Positions 2,820 through 41,160 of a stretch of 64,000 nt of DNA are shown piece by piece. The position numbers and the translations under genes were made by a program. Within the stretch, counting starts at the first letter, position 1; each line of letters begins with the position of its first letter. This DNA comes from Impatiens glandulifera (lineage: Eukaryota; Streptophyta; Magnoliopsida; Ericales; Balsaminaceae), in NCBI RefSeq assembly GCF_907164915.1, contig NC_061869.1:44699771-44763770 (forward strand), in the 5' to 3' direction. The notes beneath the pieces were generated by a model, which did not search any database, was not told the origin of the DNA, and saw nothing but the letters and a program-made list of their open reading frames with translations.

Positions 2820-3190
2820 ATGCCGAAGGTTTTAATATAACTTTCGGTTTTGATATTAGTCAAAACCGAAGGTTTATTAAAAACCTTCGGAAATAACCAT
2901 TACCAAATTTAGAATTTTTTTAATTGAGCAAAACCGAAGGTTCTTTGTAAAACTTTCGGAAATGAGAATTTCAAAAAAGGTAAAACCGAAGGTTCTTTGA
3001 ATAACCTTCGCAATTAAAAATCCATGGGATTTCAAAACCGAAGGTTTTTGTAAAAACCTTTGCAATTAACCCACATCCAACACTTAGATTTTTTTTTATT
3101 TTTTTGGGAAGGTTAAAACCGAAAGTTCTACAAAGAAATTTCGTTAATAATTATTAAACCCGAAGGTTATACACCCCCCTCGGAATCTAT
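2820..3190 (-). repeat. CACTA subterminal repeats, apparent source of the satellite monomer
   Basis: Several inverted pairs of CCGAAGGTT / AACCTTCGG lie within 370 bases of the CACTA terminus. On the minus strand, about 3093-3000, the order is TCTAAGTGTTGG, GGGTTAATTGCAAAGG, TTTTTACAAAAACCTTCGG, TTTTGA. That is the same order and wording as the monomer of the 37-kb array. The similarity covers most of the monomer length, not just the hairpin. Confidence 0.8.
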
Positions 3191-3258
3191 TTTTAATACT
3201 GAAGGATTTGTTCCTCTCGGGAGTATTTAGGAGAGTTTTATAAAACCTTTAGGAAAAA

Positions 3259-3288
3259 CAGTCGGTAAAAGTCCTTTTTTTACTAGTG
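3259..3288 (-). repeat. CACTA terminal inverted repeat
   Basis: Minus strand from 3288: CACTAGTAAAAAAAGGAC, then TTTTACCGACTG. The next three bases outside (3289-3291, TCT) are the candidate 3-bp target duplication; the partner copy would lie beyond the left edge and cannot be checked here. Confidence 0.75.
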
Positions 3289-3606: not shown

Positions 3607-3609
3607 AAG

Positions 3610-4109
3610 NNNNNNNNNNNNNNNNNNNNNNNNNNNNNNNNNNNNNNNNNNNNNNNNNNNNNNNNNNNNNNNNNNNNNNNNNNNNNNNNNNNNNNNNNNN
3701 NNNNNNNNNNNNNNNNNNNNNNNNNNNNNNNNNNNNNNNNNNNNNNNNNNNNNNNNNNNNNNNNNNNNNNNNNNNNNNNNNNNNNNNNNNNNNNNNNNNN
3801 NNNNNNNNNNNNNNNNNNNNNNNNNNNNNNNNNNNNNNNNNNNNNNNNNNNNNNNNNNNNNNNNNNNNNNNNNNNNNNNNNNNNNNNNNNNNNNNNNNNN
3901 NNNNNNNNNNNNNNNNNNNNNNNNNNNNNNNNNNNNNNNNNNNNNNNNNNNNNNNNNNNNNNNNNNNNNNNNNNNNNNNNNNNNNNNNNNNNNNNNNNNN
4001 NNNNNNNNNNNNNNNNNNNNNNNNNNNNNNNNNNNNNNNNNNNNNNNNNNNNNNNNNNNNNNNNNNNNNNNNNNNNNNNNNNNNNNNNNNNNNNNNNNNN
4101 NNNNNNNNN
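3610..4109. other. Assembly gap (500 N)
   Basis: Exactly 500 Ns, the usual placeholder for a scaffold gap of unknown length. The join between the gene fragment and the satellite array is therefore not sequenced. Confidence 0.98.
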
Positions 4110-5415
4110 TGGGTAATTTCAAAAGTTTTTCAAAAAACACTCGGTTTTGTCTTTTTCCAAAAAATCTAAAAATAATTCTAATTGTTGGGAAATGGGTAAT
4201 TGTAAAAGTTTTTCAAAAAACACTCGGTTTTGTATTTTTCCAAAAAATCTAAAAACAATTCTAAGTATTAGTAAGGGGTAATTGCGAAAGTTTTTCAAAA
4301 AACCCTCGATTTTGAGTTTTCCCCGATAAAAACTGAAATTAATTCTAAGTGTTGGGAAAAGAGTAATTGCGAAGATTTAAAAAAAAAACCTTGCTTTTGA
4401 CGTTTTCTCCATAAAAAATGAAAATAATTCTAAGTATTGGGAAGGGGTAATTGCGAAAGTTTTTCAAAAAACCCTCGGTTTTGACTTTTTCCCCATAAAA
4501 ATTGAAAGTAATTCTAAGTGTTGGGAAAAGATAATTGCGAAGGTTTTCAAAAAAAAAAACATTGTTTTGACTTTTTCCCCATAAAAACTGAAAATAATTC
4601 TAAGTGTTGGGAAAAGGGTAATTGCGAAGGTTTTTCAAAAAAAAACCCTTCGGTTTTGACTTTTTCCCCATAAACACTGAAATAATTCAAAATGTTGGGA
4701 AATGGGTAATTGCGAAAGTTTTTCAAAAAACACACGGTTTTGGTATTTTTTCAAAAAATCTAAAAATAATTCTACGTATTGGGATGGGGTTAATTGCGAA
4801 AGTTTCCAAAAAAACCCTCGATTTTGACTTTTCCCCGATAAAAACTGAAAATAATTCTAGTGTTGGGAAAAGGGTAATTGCGAAGATTTTCAAAAAAAAA
4901 CCTTCCGATTTTGACTTTTCCCCCATAAAAACTGAAAATAATTATAATTGTTAGGAAATGGTAAATTGCAAAGTTTTTCAAAAAAACCATCGGTTTTGTC
5001 TTTTTCCAAAAAATTAAAAATAAGTCTAAGTATTGGGAAGGGGTAATTGCGAAAGTTTTCAAAAAAACCCTCGATTTGACTTTCCCCGATAAAAACTAAA
5101 AATAATTCTAAGTGTTGGGAAAAGAGTAATTGCGAAGATTTTTTTAAAAAAAAACCTTTCTTTTGACTTTTTCCCCATAAAAACTGAAAATTATTCTAAG
5201 TGTTGGGAAATGGATAATTGCCAAAGTTTTTTAAAAAAATCTTCGGTTTTGACTTTTTCCACCATAAAAACTAAAAATAATTCTAAGTGTTGGGAAGGGG
5301 GTAATTGCAAAAGTTTTTCATAAAATTCTCGGTTTTTACTTTTCCAAAAAAACTGAAAATAATTCTAAGTACTGTGAATGGGGTAATTGCGAAGGTTTGT
5401 AAAAAAACCCTCGAT
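4110..5415 (+). repeat. Segmental duplication inside the array, copy 1
   Basis: This segment recurs at 6364-7668 (offset about 2254) with the same ordered monomer variants. Examples are TGGGTAATTTCAAAAG at 4110 and 6364, CAAAAAACACACGG near 4724 and 6980, and the odd ACTGTGAATGGGG near 5379 and 7624. Both copies end close to the same variant, the second one at the 60-N gap. Confidence 0.8.
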
Positions 5416-6220
5416 TTTGACTTTTCCCACATAAAAACTGAAAATAATTCTAATTGTTGGGAAATGGGTAATTGCAAAAGCTTTTCAAAAAACCATCGAT
5501 TTGTCTTTTTCCAAAAAATTAAAAATAATTCTAAGTATTGGGAAGGGGTAATTGCGAAAGTTTTTCAAAAAACCCTCGATTTTGACTTTTCCCCGATAAA
5601 AACTAAAAATAATTCTAAGTGTTGGGAAAAGAGTAATTGCGAAGATTTTTTTAAAAAAAACCTTTCTTTTGACTTTTCCCCATAAAAACTGAAAATTATT
5701 CAAAGTGTTGGGAAATGGATAATTGCCAAAGTTTTTTAAAAAAATCTTCGGTTTTGACTTTTTCCACCATAAAAACTAAAAATAATTCTAAGTGTTGGGA
5801 AGGGGGTAATTGCAAAAGTTTTTCATAAAATCCTCGGTTTTTACTTTTCCAAAAAAAACTGAAAATAATTCTAAGTACTGTGAATGGGGTAATTGCGAAG
5901 GTTTGTAAAAAAACCCTCGATTTTGACTTTTCCCACATAAAAACTGAAAATAATTCTAATTGTTGGGAAATGGGTAATTGCAAAAGCTTTTCAAAAAACC
6001 ATCGATTTGTCTTTTTCCAAAAAATTAAAAATAATTCTAAGTATTGGGAAGGGGTAATTGCGAAAGTTTTTCAAAAAACCCTCGATTTTGACTTATCCCC
6101 GATAAAAACTGAAAATAATTCTAAGTGTTGAGAAAAAGATTATTGCGAAGGTTTTTCAAAAAAAAAATCATTCTTTTTGACTTTTTCCCCATAAAAACTG
6201 AAAATAATTCTAAGTGTTGA
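5212..6220 (+). repeat. Tandem duplication of a ~505-bp, six-monomer block
   Basis: The block starting GGATAATTGCCAAAG at about 5212 recurs at about 5715. Shared idiosyncrasies include TTTTTCCACCATAAAAAC, TTTCATAAAAT and GCTTTTCAAAAAACCATC (5480 and 5986). Near-identity suggests recent unequal exchange. Confidence 0.8.
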
Positions 6221-6363
6221 AAAATCGTTAATTTCGAAAGTTTTTTAAAAAAACCTCGTTTTTTTTATTTTTCCCCATAAAAACTGAAAATAATTTAAGT
6301 GTGGGGAAAAGCTTTTCATTTTTTTCCCCATAAAAACTAAAAATAATTATAATTGTTGGGAAA

Positions 6364-7668
6364 TGGGTAATTTCAAAAGTTTTTCAAAAAACACTCGGTT
6401 TTGTCTTTTTCCAAAAAATCTAAAAATAATTCTAATTGTTGGGAAATGGGTAATTGTAAAAGTTTTTCAAAAAACACTCGGTTTTGTATTTTTCCAAAAA
6501 ATCTAAAAACAATTCTAAGTATTAGTAAGGGGTAATTGCGAAAGTTTTTCAAAAAACCCTCGATTTTGAGTTTTCCCTGATAAAAACTGAAAATTATTCT
6601 AAGTGTTGGGAAAAGAGTAATTGCGAAGATTTAAAAAAAAAAACCTTGCTTTTGACGTTTTCTCCATAAAAAATGAAAATAATTCTAAGTATTGGGAAGG
6701 GGTAATTGCGAAAGTTTTTCAAAAAACCCTCGGTTTTGACTTTTTCCCCATAAAAATTGAAAGTAATTCTAAGTGTTGGGAAAAAGATAATTGCGAAGGT
6801 TTTCAAAAAAAAAAACATTTTTTTTGACTTTTTCCCCATAAAAACTGAAAATAATTCCAAGTGTTGGGAAAAGGGTAATTGCGAAGGTTTTTCAAAAAAA
6901 ACCCTTGCTTTTGACTTTTTTCCCATAAAAACTAAAAATAATTCTAATTGTTGGGAAATGGGTAATTGGAAAAGTTTTTCAAAAAACACACGGTTTTGTA
7001 TTTTTTCAAAAAATCTAAAAATAATTCTACGTATTGGGATGGGGTAATTGCGAAAGTTTCCAAAAAACCCTCGATTTTGACTTTTCCCCGATAAAAACTG
7101 AAAATAATTCTAAGTGTTGGGAAAAGGGTAATTGCGAAGATTTTCAAAAAAAAACCTTCGATTTTGACTTTTCCCCCATAAAAACTGAAAATAATTATAA
7201 TTGTTAGGAAATGGTAATTGCAAAAGTTTTTCAAAAAACCATCGGTTTTGTCTTTTTCCAAAAAATTAAAAATAATTCTAAGTATTGGGAAGGGGTAATT
7301 GCGAAAGTTTTTCAAAAAACCCTCGATTTTGACTTTTCCCCGATAAAAACTAAAAATAATTCTAAGTGTTGGGAAAAGAGTAATTGCGAAGATTTTTTTA
7401 AAAAAAAACCTTTCTTTTGACTTTTTCCCCATAAAAACTGAAAATTATTCTAAGTGTTGGGAAATGGATAATTGCCAAAGTTTTTTTAAAAAAATCTTCG
7501 GTTTGACTTTTTCCACCATAAAACTAAAAATAATTCTAAGTGTTGGGAAGGGGGTAATTGCAAAAGTTTTTCATAAAATTCTCGGTTTTTACTTTTCCAA
7601 AAAAACTGAAAATAATTCTAAGTACTGTGAATGGGGGTAAATTGCGAAAGGTTTGTAAAAAAACCCTC
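6364..7668 (+). repeat. Segmental duplication inside the array, copy 2
   Basis: Partner of 4110-5415. It stops at the N gap beginning at 7669, so the assembler may have broken the sequence at this long near-identical duplication. Confidence 0.8.
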
Positions 7669-7728
7669 NNNNNNNNNNNNNNNNNNNNNNNNNNNNNNNN
7701 NNNNNNNNNNNNNNNNNNNNNNNNNNNN
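7669..7728. other. Assembly gap (60 N)
   Basis: Sixty Ns inside the array. The 30-odd bases immediately after it (7729-7760, containing AATAAAGCCGATCC) do not look like satellite, so the fill or join here is doubtful. Confidence 0.97.
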
Positions 7729-10700
7729 CCCGTCTCTAACAATAAAGCCGATCCTATCAGTTTTTGACTCTTTCAAAAAAATATAAAAATAATTCTAAGT
7801 ATTGAGAAAGGGGTAATTGCGAAGGTTTTACAAAAAACCATCGGTTTGACTTTTTCCCCATAAAAACTGAAAATAATTCTAAGTGTTAGGAAGGGGTAAT
7901 TGCGAAAATTTTTCAAAAAACCCTCGGTTTTGACTCTTCCGAAAAAACTGAAAATAATTCTAAGTGTTGGGAAGGGGTTAATTGCGAAGGTTTTTCAAAA
8001 AAACCCTCGATTTTGACTTTTCTCTCATAAATACTGAAAATAATTCTAATTGTTGGGAATGGGTAATTGCAAAAGTTTTTCAAAAAACCCTCGGTTTTAT
8101 CTTTTTCCAAAAAATTAAAAATAATTCTAAGTATTGGGAAGGGGTAATTGCGAAAATTTTTCAAAAAACCCTCGATTTTGACTTTTCCCCGATAAAAACT
8201 GAAATAATTCTAATTGTTGGGAAAAGGATAATTGCGAAGATTTTTCAACTAAAACCTTAATTTTGACTTTATCCCCATAAAAACTGAAAATAATTCTAAG
8301 TGTTGGGAAATGGATAATTGACAAAAAAATTTCAAAAAACCCTCATTTTTGACTTTTTCCCCATAAAAACTGAAAATAATTCTAAGTGTTGGGAAAGGGG
8401 TAATTGCGAAAGTTTTTCCTAAAACCCTTGGTTTTGACTCTTCCAAAAAAACTGAAAATAATTCTAAGTGTAGGGAAGGGGTAATTGCGAAGGTTTTTCA
8501 AAAAACCCTCGATTTTGACTTTTTCCCATAAATAATTCTAATTGTTGGGAAATCGGTAATTGCAAAAGTTTTTAAAAAAAACCCTCGGTTTTAACTTTTT
8601 CACCATAAAAACTGAAAATAATTCTAATTGTTGGGAAATGGGTAATTGCGAAGGTTTTTCAAAAAAACCGTTGATTTTAACTTTTTCCCCAAAAAAACTG
8701 AAAATAATTCTAAGTTTTGGGAAATGGATAATTGCCAAAGTTTTTTCAAAAAACCCTCGGTTTTGACTTTTTACTCATAAAAAATGAAAATAATTCTAAG
8801 TGTTGGGAAGGGGGTAATTGCGAAAGTTTTTCATAAAACCCTCGGTTTTGACTCTTCCAAAAAAACTAAAAATAATTCTAATTGTTGGGATGGGGTAATT
8901 GCGAAGGTTTAAAAAAAAACCATCGATTTTGACTTTTTCCCCATAAAAACTAAAAATAATTCTAATTGTAGGGAAATGGGTAATTGCAAAAGTTTTTCAA
9001 AAAACACTCGCTTTTGTCTTTTCCAAAAAATCTAAAAATAATTCTAAGTATTGGGAATGGTAATTGCGAAAGTTTTTCAAAAAACCCTCGGTTTTGACTT
9101 TTTCCCAATAAAAATTGAAAGTAATTCTAAGTGTTAGGAAAAGGATAATTGCGAAGGTTTTCAAAAAAAAACATTCTTTTTGACTTTTTACCCATAAAAA
9201 CTGAAAATAATTCTAAGTGTTGAAAAATGGGTAATTTCGAAAGTTTTTTTAAAAAACCCTCAGTTTTTACTTTTTTCTTATAAAACTGAAAATAATTCTA
9301 AGTGTTGGGAAATGAGTAATTGCAAAGGTTTTTAAAAAAACTTCGATTTTGACTCTTTTCAAAAAATCTGAAAATAATTTTAAGTATTGGGAAGGGGTTA
9401 ATTGCGAAGGTTTTACAAAAAAACCATCTTTTTTTACTCTTTCAAAAAAATATAAAAATAATTCTAAGTATTGAAAAATGGGTAATTTCAAAAGTTTTTT
9501 CAAAAAACCCTTGGTTTTTACTTTTTCCCCATAAAAACTGAAAATAATTCTAAGTGTTGGGAAAGGGATAATCGTGAAAGTTTTTAAAAAAATCCTCAGT
9601 TTTGACTCTTCCGAAAAAACAGAAAACAATTCTAAGTGTTGGGAAGGGGTTAATTGCGAAGGTTTTTCAAAAAAACCCTCGATTTTGACTTTTTCCCCAT
9701 AAAAACTAAAAATAATTCTAAGTTTTGGGAAATTGGTAATTGCGAAAGGTTTTCAAAAAAACCATCGTTTTGTCTTTTTCCAAAAAATTAAAAATAATTC
9801 TAAGTATTCGGAAGGGATAATTGCGAAAGTTTTTCAAAACCCCTTGATTTTGACTTTTCCCCGATAAAAACTGAAAATAATTCTAAGTGTTGGGAAAAGG
9901 GTAATTGCGAAGATTTTTCAAAAAAAACCCTTGTTTTGACTTTTTCCCCATAAAAACTGAAAATAATTCTAAGTGTTAGGAAATGGATAATTGCCAATGT
10001 TTTTTCAAAAAACTCTCGGTTTTGACTTTTTCACCATAAAAACTAAAAATAATTCTAAGTGTTGGGAAGGGGTAATTGCAAATGTTTACATAAAACCCTC
10101 GGTTTTGACTCTTCCAAAAAACTGAAAATAATTCTAAGTATTGGGAAGGGGGTAATTGCGAAGATTTTTCAAAAAAACCCTTAATTTTGACTTTTCCCCC
10201 ATAAAAACTGAAAATAATTCTAATTGTTGGGAAATGGGTAATTGTAAAAGTTTTTCAAAAAACCCTCGGTTTTGTCTTTTTCCAAAAAATTAAAAATAAT
10301 TCTAAGTATTGGGAAAAGGTAATTGCGAAAGTTTTTCAAAAAACCCTCAATTTTGACTTTTCCCGATAAAAACTGAAAATAATTCTAAGTGTTGGGAAAA
10401 GGGTATTTGCGAAGATTTTTCAAAAAAAAAAACTCTTACTTTTGACTTTTTCCCATAAAAACTGAAGATAATTCTAAGTATTGGGAAGGGAGTAATTGCG
10501 AAGGTTTTTCAAAAAACCCTCGATTTTGACTTTTCCCCCATAAAAACTGAAAATAATTCTAATTGTTGGGAAATGGGTAATTACAAAAGTTTTTCAAAAA
10601 TTATCAGTTTGTCTTTTTCCAAAAAATAAAAAATAATTCTAAGTATTGGGAAGGGGTAATTGCGAAAGTTTTTTCAAAAAACCCTCGATTTTGACTTTTC

Positions 10701-13700
10701 CCCGAAAAAAACTAAAAATAATTCTAATTGTTGGGAAAAGGGTAATTGCGAAGGTTTTTAAAAAAAACATTCTTTTTTACTTTTTCCCAATAAAAACTGA
10801 AAATAATTCTATTTATTGAAAAATGGATAATTTCGAAAGTTTTTTCAAAAAGCCCTCGGTTTTTACTTTTTTCTTATAAAAACTGAAAATAATTTTAAGT
10901 GTTGGGAAATGGGTAATTGCAAAGGTTTTTCAAAAAACCCTCGTTTTTTACTCTTTTCAAAAAATCTGAAAAAAATTTTAAGTATTGGGAAGGGGTTAAT
11001 TGCGAAAATTTTACAAAAAACACTTGTTTTTGACTCTTTAAAAAAATATAAAAATAATTCTAAGTATTGGGAAGGGGTAATTGCGAAGGTTTTTCAAAAA
11101 ACCATCGGTTTTGACTTTTTCCCCATAATAACTGAAAATAATTCTAATTGTTATGAAGGGGTAATTGCGAAAATTTTCAAAAAACCCTCGGTTTTTAACT
11201 TTTTCGAAAAAAACTGAAAATAATTCTAAGTGTTGGGAAGGGGATAATTGCGAAGGTTTTTCAAAAAACCCTCAATTTTATATTTTTCCCCATAAAAACT
11301 ATAAATAATTCTAATTTTTGGGAAGGGGTAATTGCGAAAGTTTTTCAAAAAACCCTCAGTTTTGACTTTTTCCCCATAAAAATTGAAAGTGATTCTAAGT
11401 AGTGGGAAAAGGATAATTGCGAAGGTTTTTAAAAAAAAAACCATTCTTTTTGACTTTTTCCCCATAAAAATTGAAAATAATTCTAAGTGTTGAAAATGGG
11501 TAATTTAGAAAGTTTTTTCAAAAAACCCTCGGTTTTTACTTTTTTCTTATAAAAACTGAAAATAATTCTAAGTGTTGGGAAATGGGTAATTGCAAAGGTT
11601 TTTCTTAAAACCTTTGGTTTTGACTCTTTTAAAAAAACTAAAAATAATTCTAAGTGTTGGGATTTGGTAATTGCGAAGGTTTTTAAAAAAAACCCTCGAT
11701 TTTGACTTTTCCCCATAAAACTAAAAATAATTCTAATTTTTGGGAAATGGGTAATGGCGAAAGTTTTTCAAAAAACACTCGGTTTTGTCTTTTTTCCAAA
11801 AAATCTAAAAATAATTCTAAGTATTGGGAAGGGGTAATTGCGAAGGTTTTAAAAAAAACATTCTATTTGACTTTTTCCCCATAAAAACTGAAAATAATTC
11901 TAATTGTTAAAAAATATGTAATTTCGAATGTTTTTTCAAAAAACCCTCGGTTTTGACTTTTTCCCCATAAAAACTGAAAATAATTCTAAGTGTTGGGAAA
12001 GGGGTAATCGCGAAAGTTTTTAAAAAAATTCTCGGTTTTGACTCTTCCGAAAAAACTTAAAATAATTCTAAGTGTTGGGAAGGGGTAATTGCGAAGGTTT
12101 TTCAAAAAAACCCTCGATTTTGACTTTTTTCCCCATAAAAACTGAAAATAATTCTAAGTGTTGGGAAATGAGTAATTGAAAAAGTTTTCAAAAAAACCCT
12201 CGGTTTTGACATTTTCCCTAAAAAAATTTAAAATAATTCAAGTGTTGGAAAGGAAGTAATTGCAAAAGTTTTTCAAAAATCCCTCGATTTTGACTTTTCC
12301 CCGATAAAAACTGAAAATAATTCTAAGTGTTGGGAAAAGGGTAATTGCAATGATTTTTCAAAAAAAAACCTTTGCTTTTGACTTTTTCCCTATAAAAACT
12401 GAAAATAATTCTAAGTGTTGGGAAATGAATAATTTCCAAAGTTTTTTCAATAAACTCTCGGTTTTGACTTTTTCTCCATAAAAACTGAAAATAATTCTAA
12501 GTGTTGGGAAGGGGGTAGTTGTGAAATTTTTTCAAAAAACACTCGGTTTTGACTCTTTCCTAAAAATCTTAAAATAATTCTAAGTATAGGGAAATGATAA
12601 TTGAAATTTTTTTCAAAAAACCTTCGGTTTTGACTAATTCCCCATAAAATCTGAAAATAATTCTAAATGTTGGGAATGGGTTAATTGCGAAAGTTTTTCA
12701 AAAAACCCTCGGTTTTGACTATTTCCAAAAAATCTTCAAATAATTCTAAGTATTGGGAAGGGATAATTGCTAAGGTTTTTCAAAAAAAAACCCTCGGTTT
12801 TTACTATTTCCAAAAAATCTTACAATAATTCTAAGTATTGGGAAGGTGATAATTGCGAAAGTTTTTCAAAAAACCCTCATGTTTTGACTATTTCCAAAAA
12901 ATCTTAAAATAATTCTAAATATTGGGATGGATAATTGCAAAGGGTTTTCAAATAACCCTCGGTTTTGAATTTTCTAAAAAAACTGAAAATAATTGCAAAG
13001 GTTTTTCAAAAAACTATCGGTTTTGACTCTTTCAAAAAAAATGAAAATAATTCTAATTATTGAGAAAGGTGTATTGGGAAATGGGTAATTGCGAAGGTTT
13101 TTCAAAAAACTCTCGATTTGACTCTTAAAAAAAACTGAAAATAAATCTAAGTGTTGGGAAGGGGGTAATTGCGAAAGTTTTTCAAAAAACCCTCAATTTT
13201 GACTCTTTCTAAAAAATCTGAAAATAATTATAAGTGTTGGTAAATGGGTAATTGCGAAGGTTTTTCAAAAAAACCTCGGTTTTGACTCTTCTCAAAAAAA
13301 CTAAAAATAATTCTAAGTGTTGGGAAGGGTAATTGCGAAAGTTTTTCAAAAAACCCTCGGTTTTGACTTTTTCCCCTAAAAACTGAAAATAATTCTAAGT
13401 GTAGGGAAGGGGATAATTGCGAAGATTTTTTCATAAAACCCTCGGTTTTGACTATTCCAAAAAAACTGAAAATAATTTTAAGTGTTGGAAAGCAGGTAAT
13501 TGCAAAGGTTTTTTAAAAAAACTCTCAGTTTAAACTTTTTTCCCCATAAAAATTAAAAATAATTCTAAGTGTTGGTAAATGGGTAATTGCGAAGGTTTTT
13601 CAAATAAACTTTTGTTTTTGACTTTTCCCCATAAAAACTGAAAATAATTCTAAGTGTTGGGAAATGGGTAATTGCAAAAGTTTTTCAAAAAACCATCAGT

Positions 13701-27100: not shown

Positions 27101-27345
27101 GGGAAGAATGTCAATTTTATTTTTAAAGTTGGAGGTCGGTGTCAAATTTATTTATAAAGTTGTAAAATTCTATTTATGTATACAAAGTTGTCAAAATGTG
27201 TCAAAATTATTTAGCATAACGGAATGTTTTAAACAAATTTAATTTTTTATCCACGTGGATATTTATTTTATATTTTATTTTAACTTATTTTTTTCATTTC
27301 AATCAGACTTTTTCTTTACATTTAATAAATAAATAAATAATAATT
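27101..27345 (+). repeat. Left terminal inverted repeat of the MULE-like element
   Basis: It aligns to the reverse complement of 28095-28339 with scattered substitutions. It contains CACGTG (G-box) within CCACGTGGAT at about 27251-27260, and it ends in an AATAAATAAATAA tract. Confidence 0.8.
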
Positions 27346-28094
27346 TCATTCTCTCTCCTCCTTCACCGATTCATATTCTTTTCATTTAAATCTTAATCTC
27401 CAAAATCTCATCCACCATTTCTCATACCCACTTTGTCTTCTCTCTCCGAATTTCACCCTATGTTCTTCTCAATTGATGTCAAAGTAATAAGTTATATATT
27501 CAATGCGAAACATCAAACTAGAAATTCTGGATTTCATTTGAATAATTTACCTGCAAATTTCGCTAGGGGATTAGAACAATAAATTTTTAGCGGTTAACTG
27601 TGATGGTTAAAATTTTGAAAAATAAAATTGAGATTCTAGAAACGGTTATTGAGATTTTAGCTTTAATTATAATCGAAGTTGGAGTTGATAAGTTAAATGT
27701 GATATGTCACTTGTTTGTCATTGTTTCTGATTGTTCTTTGTGAAGGAAAAACTAGTTCCAAGATCGCATCAGTTAGTGTTTTGAAACTCATTTAGTTAAA
27801 TCCTCAATCACAGAGTTCAATTGCAGATAAACGAGGTTTATTACAAATATTATATTGTTTGTTCGAAACTGGTCCATCCGATGATCAGATCACGAAACAA
27901 GTCTGTATTATCAGGCCTAACAGTATTATCAAAGTCTATGAATGATCTAGTTAAATAAGGAATAGCAAAAACAGCTTGCACATTCTCTAGAGATTGAGAT
28001 TCGATTTGTTGAGTTCTTGAATGTGAATAGATTGGTTGCTGGGCGGCTGTGAAAAAGAGGGGATGAAGATGATGGTGGGTAGAAAGGAAAATTT

Positions 28095-28339
28095 TATTTA
28101 TTTAATTTTATATATTAAATAGAAAAAAAAGGTCTGTTTGAAATGTAAAAAATAGGTTAAAAAAATATAAAAAATAAATATCCACGTGGATAAAATCTTA
28201 ATGCCGTTTGAGACATTCCGTTAGGTTAAATAATTTTGACACATTTTGACAAGTTTATTTACATAAATAAAATTTTACAACTTTGTAAATAAATTTCACA
28301 CCTTGTTCCAACTTTATAAATAAAATTGACATTCTTCCC
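28095..28339 (-). repeat. Right terminal inverted repeat of the MULE-like element
   Basis: Reverse complement of the left repeat, again carrying the CCACGTGG palindrome (about 28182-28189) and ending at CATTCTTCCC. Confidence 0.8.
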
Positions 28340-31300
28340 ATAAAAATTCTAAGTGTTGGGAAATGGGTACTTGTGAAAGTTTTTTCCAAAAACCCTCGGT
28401 TTAGAATTTTTCCCCATAAAAATTGAAAATAAATTTAAATGTTGGAAGGGGGTAATTACAAAGTTTTTTCAAAAAACCCTCGGTTTTGACTTTTTCTCCA
28501 TAAAAACTGAAAATAATTCTAGGTGTAGGGAAGGGGGTAATTGCAAAAGTTTTTCAAAAAAACCTAGTTTTGACTCTTTCCAAAAAATCTTAAAATAATT
28601 CTAATTGTAGGGAAGAGGGTAATTTGCGAAAGTTTTTCAAAAAAACCCTTACTTTTGACTCTTTCCAAAAAATCTTAAAATAATTCTAAGTATTGGGAAG
28701 GGGTAATTGCAAAGGTTTTTAGAAAAACCCTCAGTTTTGACTTTTTCCCCCAAAAAAACTGAAAATAATTCTATGTGTTGGGAAATGTGTAATTGCAAGA
28801 CTGTTTAAAAAACTCTGGGTTTTGACTTTTTTCCCATAAAAACTAAAAATAATTCTTAGTGTTGGGAAGGGGTAATTGCGAAAGTTTTTCAAAAAATTCT
28901 CGGTTTTGACTTTTCCCAATAAAAACTGAAAATAATTCTTAGTGTTGGGAAAAAAGTAATTACGAAGGTTTTTAAAAAACCATTGATTTTGACTTTTTCC
29001 CCATAAAAACTTAAAATAATTCTAAGTGTTGGGAAAGGGTAAATGCGAATGTTTTTTAAAAACCCTCGGTTTTGACTCTTTCCAAAAAATCTTAAAATAA
29101 TTCTAAATATTGGGAAAGGATAATTGCAAAAGGTTTTCATAAAACCCTCGTTTTGACTTTTTCCCTATAAAAACTGAAAATAATTCTAAGTGTTGGGAAT
29201 GGGATAATTGCAAAGGTTTTCAAAAAACACTCGGTTTTAATTTTTCCCCATAAAAACTAAAAATAATTCTAAGTGTAGGGAAGGGGTAATTGCAAAAGTT
29301 TTTCAAAAAACCATAGTTTTGACTCTTTCCAAAAAATCTTAAAATAATTATAATTGTAGGGAAGAGGGTAATTGCGAAACTTTTTCAAAAAAACCCTTAC
29401 TTTTGACTCTTTCCAAAAAATCTTAAAATAATTCTAAGTATTGCGATGAGTAATTGCAAAGATTTTTAGAAAAACCCTCAGTTTTGACTTTTCCCCAAAA
29501 AAAACTGAAAATAATTCTAAGTGTTGGGAAATGTGTAATTGCAAGACTTTTTCAAAAAACTCTGGGTTTTGACTTTTTCCCCATAAAAACTAAAAATAAT
29601 TCTTAGTGTTGGGAAGGGGTAATTGCGAAAGTTTTTCAAAAAATCCTCGGTTTTGACTTTTTCCCTATAAAAACTGAAAATAATTCTTAGTGTTGGGAAA
29701 AGGGTAATTGCAAAGATTTTTAGAAAAACCCTCAGTTTTGACTTTTTCCCCAAAAAAAACTGAAAATAATTCTAAGTGTTGGAAAATGGGTAATTGCGAA
29801 ACTTTTTCAAAAAACTCTGGGTTTTGACTTTTTCCCTATAAAAACTAAAAATAATTCTAAGTGTTGGGAAAGGGTAATTGCGAAAGTTTTTCAAAAAATC
29901 CTCGGTTTTGACTTTTCCCCATAAAAACTGAATATAATTCTTAGTGTTGGGAAAAGGGTAATTACGAAGGTTTTTAAAAAACCATTGATTTTGACTTTTT
30001 CCCCATAAAAACTTAAAATAATTCTAAGTGTTGGGAAAGGGTAAATGCAAATGTTTTTTAAAAACCCTCGGTTTTGACTCTTTACAAAAAATCTTAAAAT
30101 AATTCTAAGTATTGGGAAGGGGTAATTGCGAAAGGTTTTCAAAAAACTCTCGGTTTTGACTTTTTCCCTATAAAAACTGAAAATAATTCTAAGTGTTGGG
30201 AAAGGGGTGATTGCAAAGGTTTTCAAAAAAACACTCGGTTATGATTTTTTCCCCATAAAAACTAAAAATAATTCTAAGTGTTGAAAATGAGTACTTGTGA
30301 AAGTTTTTCCAAAAACCCTCGGTTTAGAATTTTTCCCCATAAAAATTGAAAATAAATTTAAATGTTTGAAGGGGCTAATTGTAAAGGTTTTTCAAAAAAC
30401 CCTCGGTTTTGACTTTTTCTCCAAAAAACTGAAAATAATTCTAAGTGTAGTGAAGGGGGTAATTGCAAAAGTTTTTCAAAAAACCCTAGTTTTGACTCTT
30501 TCCAAAAAATCATAAAATAATTCTAATTGTAGGGAAAAGGGTAATTGCGAAATTTTTTCAAAAAACCCTCACTTTTGACTCTTTCCAAAAAATCTTAAAA
30601 TAATTTTAAGTATTGAGATGGATAATTGCAAAGGTTTTTAGAAAAACCCTCAGTTTTGACTTTTTCCCCAAAAAAAACTGAAAATAATTCTAAGAGTTGG
30701 AAATGTGTAATTGCAAAACTTTTTCAAAAAACTCTAGGTTTTGACTTTTTCCCCATAAAAACTAAAAATAATTCTTAGTGTTGGGAAGGGGTAATTGCGA
30801 AAGTTTTTCAAAACAATCCTCGGTTTTGACTTTTTCCCCATAAAAACTGAAAATAATTCTTAGTGTTGGGAAAAGGGTAATTACGAAGGTTTTTAAAAAA
30901 CCATTGATTTTGACTTTTTCCCCATAAAAACTTACAATAATTCTAAGTGTTGGGAAATGGTAATGCGAATGTTTTTTAAAAACCTTCGGTTTTGACTCTT
31001 TCCAAAAAATCTTAAAATAATTCTAAGTATTGGGAAAGAGTAATTGCGAAAGGTTTTCAAAAAACCCTTGTTTTAACTTTTTCCCTATAAAAACTAAAAA
31101 TAATTCTAAGTGTTGGGAATGGGGTAATTGCAAAGGTTTTCAAAAAAACACTCGGTTTTGATTTTTTCCCATAAAAACTGAAAATAATTCTAAGTGTAGG
31201 GAAGGGGGTAATTGCAAAAGTTTGTCAAAAAACCATAGTTTTGACTCTTTCCAAAAAATCTTAAAATAATTCTAATTGTAGGGAAGAGGGTAATTACGAA

Positions 31301-34300
31301 AGTTTTTCAAAAAAACCCTTACTTTTGACTCTTTCCAAAAAATCTTAAAATAATTCTAAGTATTGCGATGAGTAAGCAAAGGTTTTTAGAAAAACCCATA
31401 GTTTTGACTTTTTCCCCAAAAAAACTGAAAATAATTCTAAGTGTTGGGAAATGTGTAATTGCAAGACTTTTTCAAAAAACTCTGAGTTTTGACTTTTTCC
31501 CCATAAAAACTAAAACTAATTCTTAGTGTTGGGAAGGGTAATTGAGAAAGTTTTTCAAAAAATCCTCGGTTTTGACTTTTTCCCCACAAAAGCTGAAAAT
31601 AATTCTTAGTGTTGGGAAAAGGGTAATTGCAATGATTTTTAGAAAAACCCTCAGTTTTGACTTTTTCCCCAAAAAAACTGAAAATAATTCTAAGTGTTGG
31701 GAAATGGGTAATTGCGAAACTTTTTCAAAAAACTCTAGGTTTTGACTTTTTCCCCATAAAAACTAAAAATAATTCTAAGTGTTGGGAAATGGGTAATTGC
31801 GAAAGTTTTTCAAAAAATCCTCGGTTTTGACTTTTCCCCATAAAAACTGAAAATAATTCTTAGTGTTGGGAAAAGGGTAATTACGAAGGTTTTTAAAAAA
31901 CCATTGATTTTGACTTTTTCCCCATAAAAACTTAAAATAATTCTAAGTGTTGGGAAAGGGTAAATGCGAATGTTTTTTAAAAACCCTCGGTTTTGACTCT
32001 TTCCAAAAAATCTTAAAATAATTCTAAGTATTGGGAAAGGGTAATTGCAAAAGGTTTTCAAAAAACCCTCGTTTTGACTTTTTCCCTATAAAAACTGAAA
32101 ATAATTCTAAGTGTTAGGAAAAGGGTAATTACGAAGGTTTTTAAAAAACCATTGATTTTGACTTTTTCCCCATAAAAACTTAAAATAATTCTAAGTGTTG
32201 GGAAAGGGTAAATGCGAATGTTTTTTAAAAACCCTCGGTTTTGACTCTTTCCAAAAAATCTTAAAATAATTCTAAGTATTGGGAAGGGGTAATTGCGAAA
32301 GGTTTTCAAAAAACCCTCGGTTTTGACTTTTTCCCTATAAAAACTGAAAATAATTCTAAGTGTTGGGAATGGGGTAATTGCAACGGTTTTCAAAAAAACA
32401 CTCGGTTTTGATTTTTTCCCCATAAAAACTGAAAATAATTCTAAGTGTTCGGAAATGGGTACTTGTGAAAGTTTTTCCAAAAACCCTCGGTTTAGAATTT
32501 TTCCCCATAAAAATTGAAAATAAATTTAAATGTTGGAAGGGGCTAATTGCAAAGGTTTTCAAAAAACCCTCGGTTTTGACTTTTTCTCCATAAAAACTGA
32601 AAATAATTCTAAGTGTAGGGAAGAGGGTAATTGCAAAAGTTTTCAAAAAACCCTCACTTTTGACTCTTTCCAAAAAATCTTAAAATAATTCTAATTGTAG
32701 GGAAAAGGGTAATTGCGAAAGTTTTTAAAAAACCCTCACTTTTGACTCTTTCCAAAAAATCTTAAAATAATTCTAAGTATTGGGATGAGTAATTGCAAAG
32801 GTTTTTAGAAAAACCCTCAGTTTTGACTTTTTCCTCAAAAAAACCTGAAAATAATTCTAAGTGTTGGGAAATGTGTAATTGCAAGACTTTTTCAAAAAAT
32901 TCTGGGTTTTGACTTTTTCCCCATAAAAACTATAAATAATTCTTAGTGTTGGGAATGGGTAATTGCGAAAGTTTTCAAAAAATCCTCGGTTTTGACTTTT
33001 TCCCCCATAAAAACTGAAAATAATTCTTAATGTTGGGAAAAGGGTAATTACGAAGGTTTTTAAAAAACCATTGATTTTGACTTTTTTCCCATAAAAAAAC
33101 TTAAAATAATTCTAAGTGTTGGGAAAGGGTAAATGCGAATGTTTTTTAAAAACCCTCGGTTTTGACTCTTTCCAAAAAATCTTAAAATAATTTTAAGTAT
33201 TGGGAAAGGGTAATTGCAAAAGGTTTTCAAAAAACCCTCGTTTTGACTTTTTCCCTATAAAAACTGAAAATAATTCTAAGTGTTAGGAAAAGGGTAATTA
33301 CGAAGGTTTTTAAAAAACCATTGATTTTGACTTTTTCCCCATAAAAACTTAAAATAATTCTAAGTGTTGGGAAAGGGTAAATGCGAATGTTTTTTAAAAA
33401 CTCTCGGTTTTGACTCTTTCCAAAAAATCTTAAAATAATTCTAAGTATTGGGAAAGGGTAATTGCAAAAGGTTTTCAAAAAACCCTCGTTTTGACTTTTT
33501 CCCTATAAAAACTAAAAATAATTCTAAGTGTTAGGAAAAGGGTAATTACGAAGGTTTTTAAAAAACCATTGATTTTGACTTTTTACTCATAAAAACTTAA
33601 AATAATTCTAAGTGTTGGGAAATGGTAAATGCGAATGTTTTTTAAAAACCCTCGGTTTTGACTCTTTCCAAAAAATCTTAAAATAATTCTAAGTATTGGG
33701 AAGGGGTAATTGCGAAAGGTTTTCAAAAAACCCTCGGTTTTGACTTTTTCCCTATAAAAACTGAAAATAATTCTAAGTGTAGGGAAGCGGGTAATTGCAA
33801 AAGTTTTTCAAAAAACCCTAGTTTTTGACTCTTTCCAAAAAATTTTGAAATAATTCTAATTGTAGGTAAAAGGGTAATTGCGAAAGTTTTTAAAAAACCC
33901 TCACTTTTGACTCTTTCCAAAAAATCTTAAAATAATTCTAAGTATTGGGATGGGTAATTGCAAAGGTTTTTAGAAAAACCCTCAGTTTTGACTTTTTCCT
34001 CAAAAAAACCTGAAAATAATTCTAAGTGTTGGGAAATGTGTAATTGCAAGACTTTTTCAAAAAATTCTGGGTTTTGACTTTTTCCCCATAAAAACTATAA
34101 ATAATTCTTAGTGTTGGGAATGGGTAATTGCGAAAGTTTTTCAAAAAATCCTCGGTTTTGACTTTTTCCCCATAAAAACTGAAAATAATTCTTAATGTTG
34201 GGAAAAGGGTAATTACGAATGTTTTTAAAAAACCATTGATTTTGACTTTTTTCCCATAAAAAAACTTAAAATAATTCTAAGTGTTGGGAAAGGGTAAATG

Positions 34301-34404
34301 CGAATGTTTTTTAAAAACCCTCGGTTTTGACTCTTTCCAAAAAATCTTAAAATAATTTTAAGTATTGGGAAGGGTAATTGCGAAAGTTTTTCAAAAAATC
34401 CTCG

Positions 34405-34432
34405 GTTTTCAAAAAATAATTCAAGAGTCAAA
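34405..34432. other. Orientation switch of the satellite array
   Basis: Up to CCTCGGTTTTC (about 34400-34410) the monomers read on the plus strand. After a hybrid AAAAAATAATTC they continue as AAGAGTCAAAACTAGGG, the reverse complement of a monomer. The junction is inside a monomer and contains no foreign sequence, as expected for an illegitimate or fold-back joining event. Confidence 0.85.
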
Positions 34433-37400
34433 ACTAGGGTTTTTTGAAAAACTTTTGTAATTACCCATTTCCCAACAATTAAAATTATTTTTAGTTTTTA
34501 CGAGGGAAAAGTCAAAATCGAGGGTTTTTTTTGAAAAACATTCGCAATTAACCCCTTCCCAACACTTAGAATTATTTTCAGTTTTTTCGAAAGAGTCAAA
34601 ACCGAGGGTTTTTTGAAAAACTTTCGCAATTACCCTTCCCAACACTTAGAATTATTTTCAGTTTTTATGGGGGAAAAGTCAAAACCGATGGTTTTTTAAA
34701 AATCTTCGCAATTACCCATTTCCCAATACTTAGAATTATTTTTATATTTTTTTGAAAGAGTCAAAAACGAGGGTTTTTTGTAAAACCTTCGCAATTAACC
34801 CCTTCCTAATACTTCAAATTATTTTCAGATTTTTTGAAAACAGTCAAAATCGAGGTTTTTTGAAAAACTTTTGCAATTACCAATTTCCCAACAATTAGAA
34901 TTATTTACAGTTTTTATAAGAAAAAAGTAAAAACCGAGGGTTTTTTGAAAAAACTTTCGAAATTACCCATTTTTTTAATACTTGGAATTATTTTCAGTTT
35001 TTATGGGGAAAAAGTCAAAAGGAATGGTTTTTTTTAAAACCTTCGCAATTACCCTTTTCCCAACAATTAGAATTATTTTCAGTTTTTATCGGGGAAAAGT
35101 CAAAATCGATGGTTTTTTGAAAAACTTTCGCAATTACCCATTTTTCAACACTTAGAATTATTTTCAGCTTTTATGGGGAAAAAGTCAAAATCGATGGTTT
35201 TTTGAAAAACTTTCGCAACTACCCCTTACCAATACTTAGAATTATTTTTAGATTTTTTGGAAAAAGACAAAACCGAGTGTTTTTTGAAAAACTTTCGCAA
35301 TTACCCATTTCCCAACAATTAGAATTATTTTTAGTTTTCATGGGGAAAATGTCAAGATCGAGGATTTTTTTGAAAACCTTTGCAATTACCCATCCCAACA
35401 CTTAGAATTATTTTCAGTTTTTATGGGGAAAAAGTCAAAAGCAAGGGTTTTATGAAAAACTTTCGCAATTACCCCTTCCTAACACTTAGAATTATTTTCG
35501 TTTTTTATGGGGAAAAAATCAAAATCGAGGGTTTTTTGAAAAAACTTTGGCAATTATCCATTTCCCAACACTTAGAATTATTTTCAGTTTTTATGGGGAA
35601 AAAGTCAAAAGCAAGTGTTTTTTTTGAAAAATCTTCGCAATTACCCTTTTCCCAACACTTTAATTACTTTCAGTTTTTATGGGGATAAAGTCAAAACCGA
35701 GAGTTTTTTGAAAATTTTTTGCAATTACCCCTTCTCAAAACTTAAAATTATTTTTAAATTTTTTGGAAAAAGACAAAACCGAGTGTTTTTTGAAAAACTT
35801 TCGCAATTACCCATTTCCCAACAATTAGAATTATTTTCAGTTTTTATGGGGAAAAAGTTAAAATCGAGAGTTTTTTTGAAAACCTTCGCAATTACCCATT
35901 TCCCAACAATTAGAATTATTTTCAGTTTTTATGCTGAAAAAGTCAAAATCGAGGGTTCTTTTAAAAACTTTCGCAATTATCCCTTCCCAATACTTAGAAT
36001 TATTTTTAGATTTTTTGGAAAGAGACAAAACCGAGTATTTTTTGAAAAACTTTCGCAATTACCCATTTTCCAACAATTAGAATTATTTATGGGAAAAAGT
36101 CAAAATCGAGGGTTTTTTTGAAAAACTTTCGCAATTACCCCCTTCCCAACACTTAGAATTAATTTCAGTTTTTTTGGAAGAGTCAAAACCAAGGGTTTTA
36201 TGAAAAACTTTCGCAATTACCCCTTTCCCAACACTTAGAATTATTTTTAGTTTTTATGGGGACAAAGTCAAAAGCAAGGGTTTTAGTTGAAAAATCTTCG
36301 TAATTACCCTTTTCCCAACACTTAGAATTATTTTCTGTTTTTATCGGGGAAAAGTCAAAATCGAGGGTTTTTTGAAAAAATTTCGCAATTACCCCTTCAC
36401 AATACTTAGAATTATTTTTAATTTTTTGGAAAAAGACAAAACCGAGGGTTTTTTGAAAAAACTTTTGCAATTACCCATTTCCCAACAATTAGAATTATTT
36501 TTAGTTTTTACGAGGGAAAAGTCAAAATCGAGGGTTTTTTTGAAAAACCTTCGCAATTAACCCCTTCCCAACACTTAGAATTATTTTCAGTTTTTTCGGA
36601 AGAGTCAAAACCGAGGGTTTTTTGAAAAACTTTCGCAATTACCCTTCCCAACACTTAGAATTATTTTTAGTTTTTATGGGGAAAAAAGTCAAAACCGATG
36701 GTTTTTTTGAAAATCTTTGCAATTACCCCTTTCCCAATACTTATAATTATTTTTATATTTTTTTGAAAGAGTCAAAAACGAGGATATTTTGTAAAACTTT
36801 AGCAATTAACTTCTTCCCAATACTTCAAATTATTTTTAGATGTTTGAAAACAGTCAAAATCGAGGTTTCTTGAAAAACCTTTATAATTACCCATTTCCCA
36901 ACACTTAGAATTATTTTTAGTTTTTATGTGGACAAAGTCAAAAGCAAGGGTTTAGTTGAAAAATCTTCGCAATTACCCTTTTCCCAACACTTAGAATTAT
37001 TTTCAGTTTTTATCAGGGAAAAGTCAAAATCGAGGGTTTTTTGAAAATTTTTCGCAATTACCCCTTCCCAATAATTAGAAATATTTTTAATTTTTTGGAA
37101 AAAGAAAAAACTGAGGATTTTTTGAAAAACTTTTGCAATTACTCATTTCCCAACAATTAGAATTATTTTTAGTTTTTACGAGGGAAAAGTCAAAATCGAG
37201 GGTTTTTTTGAAAAACCTTCGCAATTAACCCCTTCCCAACACTTAGAATTATTTTCAGTTTTTTCGGAAGAGTCAAAACCGAGGGTTTTTTGAAAAACTT
37301 TCGCAATTACCCTTCCCAACACTTAGAATTATTTTTAGTTTTTACGGGGAAAAAGTCAAAACCGATGGTTTTTTAAAAATCTTCGCAATTACCCCTTTCC

Positions 37401-40400
37401 CAATACTTAGAATTATTTTTATATTTTTTTGAAAGAGTCAAAAACGAGGGTTTTTTTTAAAACCTTCGCAATTAACCCCTTCCCAATACTTCAAATTATT
37501 TTCAGATTTTTTGAAAACAGTCAAAATCGAGGTTTTTTGAAAAACCTTTGCAATTACCCATTTCCCAACACTTAGAATTATTTCCAGTTTTTTTAAGAAA
37601 AAGTAAAAACCGAGGGTTTTTTGAAAAAACTTTCGAAATTACCCATTTTTTATTACTTAGAATTATTTTCAGTTTTTATGTGGAAAAAGTCAAAAAGAAT
37701 GGTTTTTTTTAAAACCGTCGCAATTACCATTTTCCCAACAATTAGAATTATTTTCAGTTTTTGTCGGGGAAAAGTCAAAATCGATGGTTTTTTGAAAAAC
37801 TTTCGCAATTACCCCTACCCAATACTTAGAATTATTTTTAATTTTTTGGAAAAAGACAAGACCGAAGGTTTTTTGAAAAACTTTTGCAATTACCCATTTC
37901 CCAACAATTAGAATTATTTTCAGTTTTTATGGGGGAAAAGTCAAAATCAAGGGTTTTTTTTGAAAAATCTTCTCAATTACCCCCTTCCCAATACTTAGAA
38001 TTATTTTCAGTTTTTTTTGGAAGAGTCAAAACCGAGGGTTTTATGAAAAACCTTCGCAATTACCCCCTTCCCAACACTTAGAATTATTTTTAGTTTTTAT
38101 GGGGAAAAAGTCAAAACCGAGGGTTTTTTGAAAAATCTTTGGCAATTATCCATTTCCCAACACTTAGAATTATTTTCAGTTTTTATGGGGAAAAAGTCAA
38201 AAGCAAAGTTTTTTTTTGAAAAAATCTTCGCAATTACCCTTTTCCAAACACTTTGTATTACTTTCAGTTTTTATGGGGAAAAAGTCAAAACCGAGGGTTT
38301 TTTTTGAATATTTTTTGCAATTACCCCTTCTCAAATACATAGAATTATTTTTAGATTTTTTGGAAAAAGACAAAATCGAGTGTTTTTAGAAAAACTTTCG
38401 CAATTACCCATTTCCCAACAATTAGAATTATTTTCAGTTTTTATGGGGAAAAAGTTAAAATCGAGGGTTTTTTTGAAAAATATTCACAATTACCCATTTC
38501 CCAACAATTAAAATTATTTTCAGTTTTTATGGTGAAAAAGTCAAAACGAGAGTTTTTTTAAAAACTTTCGCAATTACCACTTCTCAATACTTAGAATTAT
38601 TTTTAGATTTTTTGGAAAAAGACAAAACCGAGTGTTTCTGGAAAAATTTTCGCAATTACCCATTTCCCAACAATTAGAATTATTTATGGGAAAAAGTCAA
38701 AATCGAGGGTTTTTTTGAAAACCTTCGCAATTACCCCCTTCCCAACACTTAGAATTATTTTCAGTTTTTTTGGAAGATTCAAAACCAAGGGTTTTATGAA
38801 AAACTTTCGCAATTACCCCTTTCCCAACACTTAGAATTATTTTCAATTTTTATGGGGAAAAAGTCAAAACCGAGGGTTTTTTGAAAAAACTTTGGCAATT
38901 ATCCATTTCCCAACACTTAGAATTATTTTTAGTTTTTATGTGGACAAAGTCAAAAGCAAGGGTTTAGTTGAAAAATCTTCGCAATTACCCTTTTCCCAAC
39001 ACTTAGAATTATTTTCAGTTTTTATCAGGGAAAAGTCAAAATCGAGGGTTTTTTGAAAATTTTTCGCAATTACCCCTTCCCAATAATTAGAATTATTTTT
39101 AATTTTTTGGAAAAAGAAAAAACTGAGGGTTTTTTGAAAAACTTTTGCAATTACTCATTTCCCAACAATTAGAATTATTTTTAGTTTTTACGAAGGAAAA
39201 GTCAAAATCGAGGGTTTTTTTGAAAAAACTTCGCAATTAACCTCTTCCCAACACTTAGAATTATTTTCAGTTTTTTCGGAAAAGTCAAAACCGAGGGTTT
39301 TTTGAAAAACTTTCGCAATGACCCTTCCCAACACTTAGAATTATTTTTAGTTTTTACGGGGAAAAAGTCAAAACCGATGGTTTTTTAAAAATCTTCGCAA
39401 TTACCCCTTTCCCAATACTTAGAATTATTTTTATATTTTTTTGAAAGAGTCAAAAACGAGGGTTTTTTTTAAAACCTTCGCAATTAACCCCTTCCCAATA
39501 CTTCAAATTATTTTCAGATTTTTTGAAAACAGTCAAAATCGAGGTTTTTTGAAAAACCTTTGCAATTACCCATTTCCCAACACTTAGAATTATTTCCAGT
39601 TTTTTTAAGAAAAAGTAAAAACCGAGGGTTTTTTGAAAAAAACTTTCGAAATTACCCATTTTTTATTACTTAGAATTATTTTCAGTTTTTATGTGGAAAA
39701 AGTCAAAAAGAATGGTTTTTTTTAAAACCGTCGCAATTACCATTTTCCCAACAATTAGAATTATTTTCAGTTTTTGTCGGGGAAAAGTCAAAATCGATGG
39801 TTTTTTGAAAAACTTTCGCAATTACCCCTTCCCAATACTTAGAATTATTTTTAATTTTTTGGAAAAAGACAAGACCGAGGGTTTTTTGAAAAACTTTTGC
39901 AATTACCCATTTCCCAACAATTAGAATTATTTTCAGTTTTTATGGGGGAAAAGTCAAAATCGAGGGTTTTTTTTGAAAAATCTTCTCAATTACCCCCTTC
40001 CCAATACTTAGAATTATTTTCAGTTTTTTTTGGAAGAGTCAAAACCGAGGGTTTTATGAAAAACCTTCGCAATTACCCCCTTCCCAACACTTAGAATTAT
40101 TTTTAGTTTTTATGGGGAAAAAGTCAAAACCGAGGGTTTTTTGAAAAATCTTTGGCAATTATCCATTTCCCAACACTTAGAATTATTTTCAGTTTTTATG
40201 GGGAAAAAGTCAAAAGCAAAGTTTTTTTTTGAAAAAATCTTCGCAATTACCCTTTTCCAAACACTTTGTATTACTTTCAGTTTTTATGGGGAAAAAGTCA
40301 AAACCGAGGGTTTTTTTGAATATTTTTTGCAATTACCCCTTCTCAAATACTTAGAATTATTTTTAGATTTTTTGGAAAAAGACAAAATCGAGTGTTTTTA

Positions 40401-41160
40401 GAAAAACTTTCGCAATTACCCATTTCCCAACAATTAGAATTATTTTCAGTTTTTATGGGGAAAAAGTTAAAATCGAGGGTTTTTTTGAAAAATCTTCACA
40501 ATTACCCATTTCCCAACAATTAAAATTATTTTCAGTTTTTATGGTGAAAAAGTCAAAACGAGAGTTTTTTTAAAAACTTTCGCAATTACCACTTCTCAAT
40601 ACTTAGAATTATTTTTAGATTTTTTGGAAAAAGACAAAACCGAGTGTTTCTGGAAAAATTTTCGCAATTACCCATTTCCCTACAATTAGAATTATTTATG
40701 GGAAAAAGTCAAAATCGAGGGTTTTTTTGAAAACCTTCGCAATTACCCCCTTCCCAACACTTAGAATTATTTTCAGTTTTTTTGGAAGATTCAAAACCAA
40801 GGGTTTTATGAAAAACTTTCGCAATTACCCCTTTCCCAACACTTAGAATTATTTTCAATTTTTATGGGGAAAAAGTCAAAACCGAGGGTTTTTTGAAAAA
40901 ACTTTGGCAATTATCCATTTCCCAACACTTAGAATTATTTTTAGTTTTTATGGGGACAAAGTCAAAAGCAAGGGTTTTAGTTGAAAAATCTTCGCAATTA
41001 CTCTTTTCCCAACACTTAGAATTATTTTCAGTTTTTATCGGGGAAAAGTTAAAATCGTGTGTTTTTTGTAAAACCTTCGCAATTAACCCTTCCCAATACT
41101 TAAAATTATTTACAGTTTTTTTGGAAGAGTCAAAACCGAGGGTTTTATGAAAAACTTTTG
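34433..41160 (-). repeat. Satellite array, minus-strand (inverted) block
   Basis: About eighty monomers in reverse orientation (CCCAACACTTAGAATTATT, then CAGTTTTTATGGGG, GTCAAAACCGAGGG and CGCAATTACCC). Apart from the first monomers it carries variants typical of the left part of the plus-strand block, not of the higher-order domain. An example is the deletion variant AGAATTATTTATGGG at 36079, 38676 and 40688, the complement of 8525-8539. It ends abruptly at a copia pol fragment at 41161. No genes are present inside. Confidence 0.95.
36909..40940 (-). repeat. Near-identical ~2012-bp tandem duplication (24 monomers) in the inverted block
   Basis: Ordered variants at 36921 (TTTTTATGTGGACAAAG) recur at 38933, and those at 37678 and 37884 recur at 39691 and 39897, a constant offset of about 2012-2013 bases. 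Few differences separate the copies, so the duplication is younger than most of the array. The limits are approximate. Confidence 0.8.

Follow-up and report, generated by a model that had tools for sequence, protein, structure and literature searches.

A free satellite array in Impatiens glandulifera probably derived from the subterminal repeats of a CACTA transposon lineage

The subject of this analysis is a 37-kb satellite array in a 64,000-nucleotide stretch of the Impatiens glandulifera genome, referred to as the window (C8:44699771-44763770; assembly of 654 Mb in 1110 contigs). We conclude, with a probability of about 0.85, that the array is a free satellite whose monomer goes back to subterminal repeats of one CACTA (En/Spm) transposon lineage, and that it arose by way of a group of elements, here named family B, defined by the type of terminal inverted repeat (TIR) flank found at the fetched loci L004 and L069-L097. 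A CACTA element belonging to another group, named family A, lies at window 1-3288, and family B is a better source for the satellite than this adjacent element.

An iterated profile search finds 429 monomer matches of ~84 bp, 419 of them near full length, which fill the window from 4110 to 41163; the main rows of Tandem Repeats Finder (TRF) give periods of 84-86 bp. The orientation of the monomers flips near 34.42 kb, where the junction letters are without any foreign sequence, and one consensus is common to both orientations, with a mean pairwise identity of 0.85 over the profile columns. Higher-order periods are regional, and none extends array-wide. At about 41163 the array gives way to a fragment of a Ty1/copia reverse transcriptase (PF07727, E 3e-20). 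Long head-to-tail arrays of this one monomer family occur at several sites, on C8, on C9 and on unplaced contigs, as befits a satellite. The preliminary description had reported more than 400 copies beyond the gap, a count that stands and to which the present analysis adds a second run of N, the insert at 27101-28339 and the switch of orientation.

The same description placed a CACTA end at 3288, and this too is borne out. The TIR of the family A element starts with CACTA (CACTAGTAAAAAAAGG), a word that by itself, with three mismatches allowed, is not above chance, and the element has the subterminal direct and inverted repeats of a CACTA transposon in the form of palindromic units at ~2815-3180. 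The 3 kb that immediately precede the window (L099) encode, on the minus strand, a tnp2-type transposase (PF02992, E 1.1e-88; PF13963, E 1.4e-20). The 168-bp family A end is dispersed on C1-C9, which are chromosome-like at 39-162 Mb, and on unplaced contigs (best 40 scored of 1139 candidates). A separate search with the 89-bp unit (best 40 of 1511) places that unit directly behind the TIR-proximal 168 bp at the places common to both searches. Sixty loci were fetched, many of them as overlapping pairs, and yield 36 distinct units that make up the family A sample.

The satellite monomer is homologous to this transposon end, the hallmark of a transposon-derived satellite. Its consensus is identical to the family A unit at 3032-3120 (minus strand) at 73/89 aligned positions, a score that 0/1000 dinucleotide shuffles match, and the spacer alone, with the palindrome removed, is likewise matched by 0/1000. 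The profile built from the array scores 27.2 bits on 2820-3288, where the best of 200 shuffles reaches 12.1 (14.4 for 2820-3190), and 33.2 bits on 1216-2090, where the best of 200 reaches 17.5; its top match in the 22.8 kb of right flank has just 5.1 bits. The words TCTAAGTGTTGG and TTAATTGC, previously pointed out as shared by the CACTA end and the array monomer, are confirmed, and the arm TAATTGC is common to the satellite and the two TIR-proximal family A units.

Elements with the same unit in tandem came to light through L004 (C8:12376864-12379946), a satellite match outside the clusters. Its 15-17 monomers are flanked by a CACTA TIR on one side and, on the other, by a CACTA interior resembling that of the window element, and we rejected it as a free array for that reason. 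In L004 and L072 the TIR flank is 76-78% like window 3112-3288 and pieces of the interior are 67-81% like window ~227-1212; judged by this shared TIR and interior, family B is to be classed as CACTA. Its TIR flank is dispersed on C1-C9 (best 40 scored of 1053 candidates), and 30 of the 40 scored ends were fetched (L004, L069-L097). A tandem run of satellite units starts ~145-190 bp inside the TIR in 29/30 of them; the thirtieth, L075, has 0 units next to the TIR and 9 units farther in. The number of units is graded. The eighteen ends with a likeness to L004 of at least 92.6% have 10-28 units beside the TIR, and twelve ends that are 88-90% like L004 carry 5, 0, 7, 7, 7, 3, 11, 6, 4, 12, 11 and 2. 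The run in L096 reached the edge of the fetched stretch and, extended by L098, comprises 51 units over 4.15 kb; there, the lags of 1,814 and 908 bp are among the monomer multiples with high ungapped identity, which hints at block copying. L004 and L069, with runs of 15 and 16 units, look like duplicates of one insertion, since they lie 25 kb apart and the 12 bases outside their TIRs are identical. An exact 36-mer picked from element arrays (L070, L072) has 43 occurrences, all on C1, C3 and C7, and 42 of these fall within six fetched elements; this is weak support, the word having been picked from those very elements.

The relation between the two sets of units was examined with 628 free units, 315 units in family B loci and 78 in more distant family B relatives. 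These rows were strand-filtered, that is, reverse-strand matches to the palindrome were removed, which took the family B rows from 431 to 315. The nine free pieces come from five places, and two of them, L001 and L002, overlap by 251 bp. Mean identities after filtering are 0.836 among free monomers, 0.841 between free and family B, 0.886 within family B, 0.757 between free and family A, and 0.792 between family B and family A. Free monomers, being as close to family B as to each other, thus lie scattered about the consensus of the elements. Each of the 18 family B loci compared is nearer to family A (0.785-0.803) than is any of the nine free pieces (0.751-0.771). The free pieces contain the variant CCCATAAA 218 times, against 0/315 family B units, 0/78 units of the distant relatives and 0/36 family A units. 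Ten columns separate free from family B monomers, and in eight of them family B is closer to family A. At column 77, in the right arm, T has a frequency of 1.00 in family A, 0.51 in the distant relatives, 0.07 in family B and 0.06 in free units; family B and the free satellite thus have a derived state, mostly C, in common. Perfectly symmetric 10-bp palindrome arms occur in 25/36 family A units, 3/67 of the distant relatives, 2/282 in family B and 3/531 free units. These symmetric arms are presumably a protein-binding feature, a prediction by analogy with En/Spm, whose arms or units we take to have that role.

Trees of the monomers had been proposed as a test, with element copies basal and array copies nested. 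A first set, with mixed family A units, was undecided, its root falling on a free unit in 5/8, an element unit in 2/8 and an ambiguous position in 1/8. Because the rows used there included reverse-strand matches to the palindrome, the trees were redone on filtered rows with the first units of family A as the outgroup, and the ingroup root is then an element unit in 12/12 random subsamples. On these 12 trees and the free-only variant, transposon copies appear ancestral to the satellite, a reading that is tempered by the shortness of the monomers and by the undecided unfiltered trees.

Several observations weigh against this direction. The monomer has 84 columns, and 6/191 inner branches were starred in a first tree, so that few forks are well supported; free monomers are the closer to family A in 2/10 separating columns; and the unfiltered trees were undecided. 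Free arrays may simply mutate faster, which alone would place them farther from the outgroup; G to A or C to T accounts for several of the states confined to free units. The ends scored in each search were the best 40 out of over 1000 candidates, the 500-N gap conceals where the window array begins on the left, and none of the loci read shows the passage from element to free array. Given the undecided first trees and the poor support of individual forks, the direction rests on all lines jointly, and most on the position of the unit in the subterminal region.

That position bears directly on the opposite history, in which the satellite came first and CACTA elements acquired arrays or monomers from it. 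Capture of this kind has been argued in print for a 171-bp satellite in CACTA elements of Chenopodium quinoa (PMC8978399), it is compatible with our unfiltered trees, and an old capture that predated the free-only variants would resemble the present data closely. Here, however, families A and B, like the more distant relatives of family B that were read, all have the unit in their subterminal region, at a near-fixed point behind the TIR; CCCATAAA, present 218 times among 628 free units, is missing from all 315 and 78 units of the elements; and the filtered rooted trees put element units at the root throughout. We regard capture as unlikely.

Free arrays appear to be concentrated at a few places. 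The free-array 37-mer CCCCATAAAAACTGAAAATAATTCTAAGTGTTGGGAA has 126 occurrences in 654 Mb, and its reversed control has 0. Among the 100 of 126 matches listed, 59 are on C8 (at 37.45-37.60, 43.22-43.24 and 44.60-44.88 Mb), 18 on C9 (at 1.97-2.09 Mb) and 23 on the unplaced contigs C117, C133 and C342; since these 100 apparently run in contig order from C8, there seem to be none on C1-C7. The word occurs 17 times among the 422 aligned units of the window, and if that ratio applies throughout, a rough estimate is ~3,100 monomers, or ~260 kb, in the assembled genome. In the window array and seven other free pieces (L001-L003, L005-L008), several of which include an array boundary, the family B TIR flank has no better matches than the 26-35 bp of the generic palindrome. 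For the interior of family B there is no match of at least 60 bp in the same pieces and in the window outside the family A element at 1-3288. We note that the free array at C8:44.78 Mb (L003) begins within a repeat copy, L003:1-230 being 85% like window 52565-52820; as this flanking repeat also occurs in the window, the empty site of the L003 array could perhaps be inferred by comparison. In L006 (700-800 and 2600-3082), a short free array on C9 adjoins, by eye, another TIR-like end, CACTCGTAAAAAAATC, and a minisatellite-like TTAGAC run. Among the nine chromosome-sized contigs, C1 stands out with 162 Mb; the next largest seen, at 68 Mb, is less than half as long.

The orientation switch raises the question of whether the 37-kb array is free at all, or instead the subterminal part of a single giant CACTA element without interior, in which two inverted ends meet. 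A plus part followed by a minus part is the order expected of 5' and 3' subterminal arms, the 500-N gap could conceal a TIR at the left end, and arrays within elements are known here up to at least 51 units. Against this, the right edge passes directly into copia reverse transcriptase with no TIR, the TIR-flank matches within 4110-41163 are merely the generic palindrome, and marker matches in both orientations over C8 44.60-44.88 Mb exceed the span of one element, which makes a giant element very improbable. As for the idea that the resemblance reflects chance or low complexity, satellite and transposon ends both being AT-rich, the array does have ~28-31% G+C and many A and T runs, but the shuffles of whole unit and spacer, together with the poor best match in the right flank, refute it for practical purposes.

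Considered together, the data favour a stepwise origin of the satellite from CACTA ends. Ancestral elements would have had one full ~83-bp unit just inside the TIR, as family A still has. In its sister, family B, the unit would have been amplified where it lay, giving tandem runs, 10 to at least 51 copies long, that are mobile with the element. Unequal exchange or slippage may account for this growth, of which the varying run length among elements is the observed trace. Pieces of an element array would then have ended up outside any element on C8 and C9, possibly through loss of element ends, ectopic recombination or a circular intermediate. Finally, the free pieces would have expanded by local duplication to hundreds of monomers, with new variants arising and spreading. 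A 1.3-kb block of the window array that recurs at 97% identity suggests that the copying of blocks contributed to later growth. Copy one of this pair starts exactly at the 500-N gap and copy two stops exactly at the 60-N gap, and with both touching gaps the pair is either a true copy or an assembly effect at the gap edges.

The preliminary description went further and saw source, intermediate and product at one locus, with all stages side by side, and in this respect it is not supported. The adjacent family A element, tried as the source, was rejected: at 0.757 its first unit is a cousin of the free monomers, which reach 0.841 with family B. It is also separated from the array by 500 N, so the two are neighbours by scaffolding alone. 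The 83-bp array reported at 1216-2090 does exist, at 1231-2085, and is related to the satellite, the whole units scoring 48 (against 84 for the family A unit) with 0/1000 shuffles as high, and the spacer giving 0/1000 in global and 15/1000 in local alignment. As an intermediate it was nevertheless rejected. It has no TAATTGC arm, mostly showing TAAAAACC instead; the relation of its spacer is weak, and a direct comparison of this spacer with that of the subterminal unit gives no sign of kinship (220 and 168 of 1000 shuffles); and of all groups compared it stands farthest from the free monomers, with an identity of 0.709. Other family A copies have comparable arrays in their interior as well, and for these reasons it is best seen as a separate, parallel amplification and not as a stage. 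The graded series itself is dispersed over the genome. In the window, the internal array follows a 99-amino-acid (aa) open frame, for which no Pfam family scores above the cut-off. A parallel order is seen in L074, a distant relative of family B, where ~1090-1490 by eye resembles the frame at 2265-2561 and is followed by more units.

That transposons can turn into satellites, also stated in the preliminary description, is well founded. Kapitonov and Jurka reportedly traced the Arabidopsis thaliana satellites Ensat1 and Ensat2 to the element Atenspm2 in 1999. Reviews likewise derive these satellites from the termini of this En/Spm element (PMC10794571, PMC9659126, PMC6947457), the complex Ensat1 monomer being similar to 499 bp of Atenspm2 and the Ensat2 monomer containing ~151 bp of it (PMC10794571). 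The Impatiens satellite is like both in that its monomer stems from the terminal part of a CACTA (En/Spm) element; unlike them, it goes back to a single ~83-bp subterminal unit and has many dispersed elements with graded copy number. The Chenopodium satellite CficCl-61-40 stems from the CACTA-like element Jozin, with a start monomer of ~40 bp in the tnp2 coding region (PMC7320549). It shares with our case the CACTA origin and arrays that adjoin pieces of the element, and differs in that the repeats here are subterminal. The C. quinoa satellite mentioned above, judged by its authors to be captured, forms a long array of 5,550 bp, with 32.5 monomers, within CACTA elements (PMC8978399), and resembles ours in combining a long array inside elements with arrays elsewhere in the genome; there the array is near the 3' end, whereas here it consists of the element's own subterminal unit beside the TIR. 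The foldback transposon Tetris of Drosophila virilis is, going by the title of the paper, a further DNA transposon that supplies satellite building blocks (PMC4079207), although it is a foldback element and from an animal. A search of open-licence literature, in the excerpts it returned, gave no satellite derived from CACTA subterminal units with graded copy number, and the available part of PMC2756281 has nothing on such a satellite. The principle is already known, and what this genome adds is the graded, positional series.

Satellite origins are commonly argued from a single similarity between a monomer and a transposon. Here, elements with one, few and many units survive in one genome, free arrays lie on two chromosomes as well as on unplaced contigs, and character states give direction; because of this the steps of in-place growth, release and spread of variants become measurable. 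More speculatively, CACTA subterminal repeats might be standing satellite nurseries, the family seeding free satellites repeatedly and growth being tied to the loss of palindrome symmetry. If an element required, or could live with, varying numbers of transposase-binding-like units beside its TIR, their number would be free to grow in mobile copies. We consider this generalization doubtful.

Table 1. Coordinates of the features described, in window positions
Feature	Position	Strand	Details
Internal 83-bp array, family A	1231..2085	-	10.5 copies (TRF)
99-aa open frame of family A element	2265..2561	-	no Pfam family above cut-off
More palindromic subterminal units, family A	2815..3031	-	irregular spacing; profile and motif words
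Single full subterminal unit, family A	3032..3120	-	closest satellite relative outside the array within the window
Family A CACTA end	3121..3288	-	TIR CACTAGTAAAAAAAGG at 3273-3288 and TIR-proximal 168 bp
Gap, 500 N	3610..4109	.	separates CACTA side from array
Satellite array, + part	4110..34420	+	348 monomer matches, ~84 bp; profile, TRF, identity structure
Duplicated 1.3-kb block	4110..5412	+	97% identical to 6364-7668, lag 26 monomers
Gap, 60 N	7669..7728	.	inside array
Foreign insert in array	27101..28339	.	1,239 bp; 240-bp terminal inverted repeats, 86% alike
Satellite array, - part	34421..41163	-	81 monomer matches; profile
Ty1/copia 3' part	41162..42780	+	RVT_2 at 41162-41401; long terminal repeat (LTR) ~42410-42780, ends by eye

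The foreign insert within the array is Mutator-like by its look. Farther to the right, two near-identical stretches in the same orientation, at ~46139-46460 and 49506-49806 and so ~3.4 kb apart, are LTR-like and, judged by eye, may belong to a non-autonomous retrotransposon.

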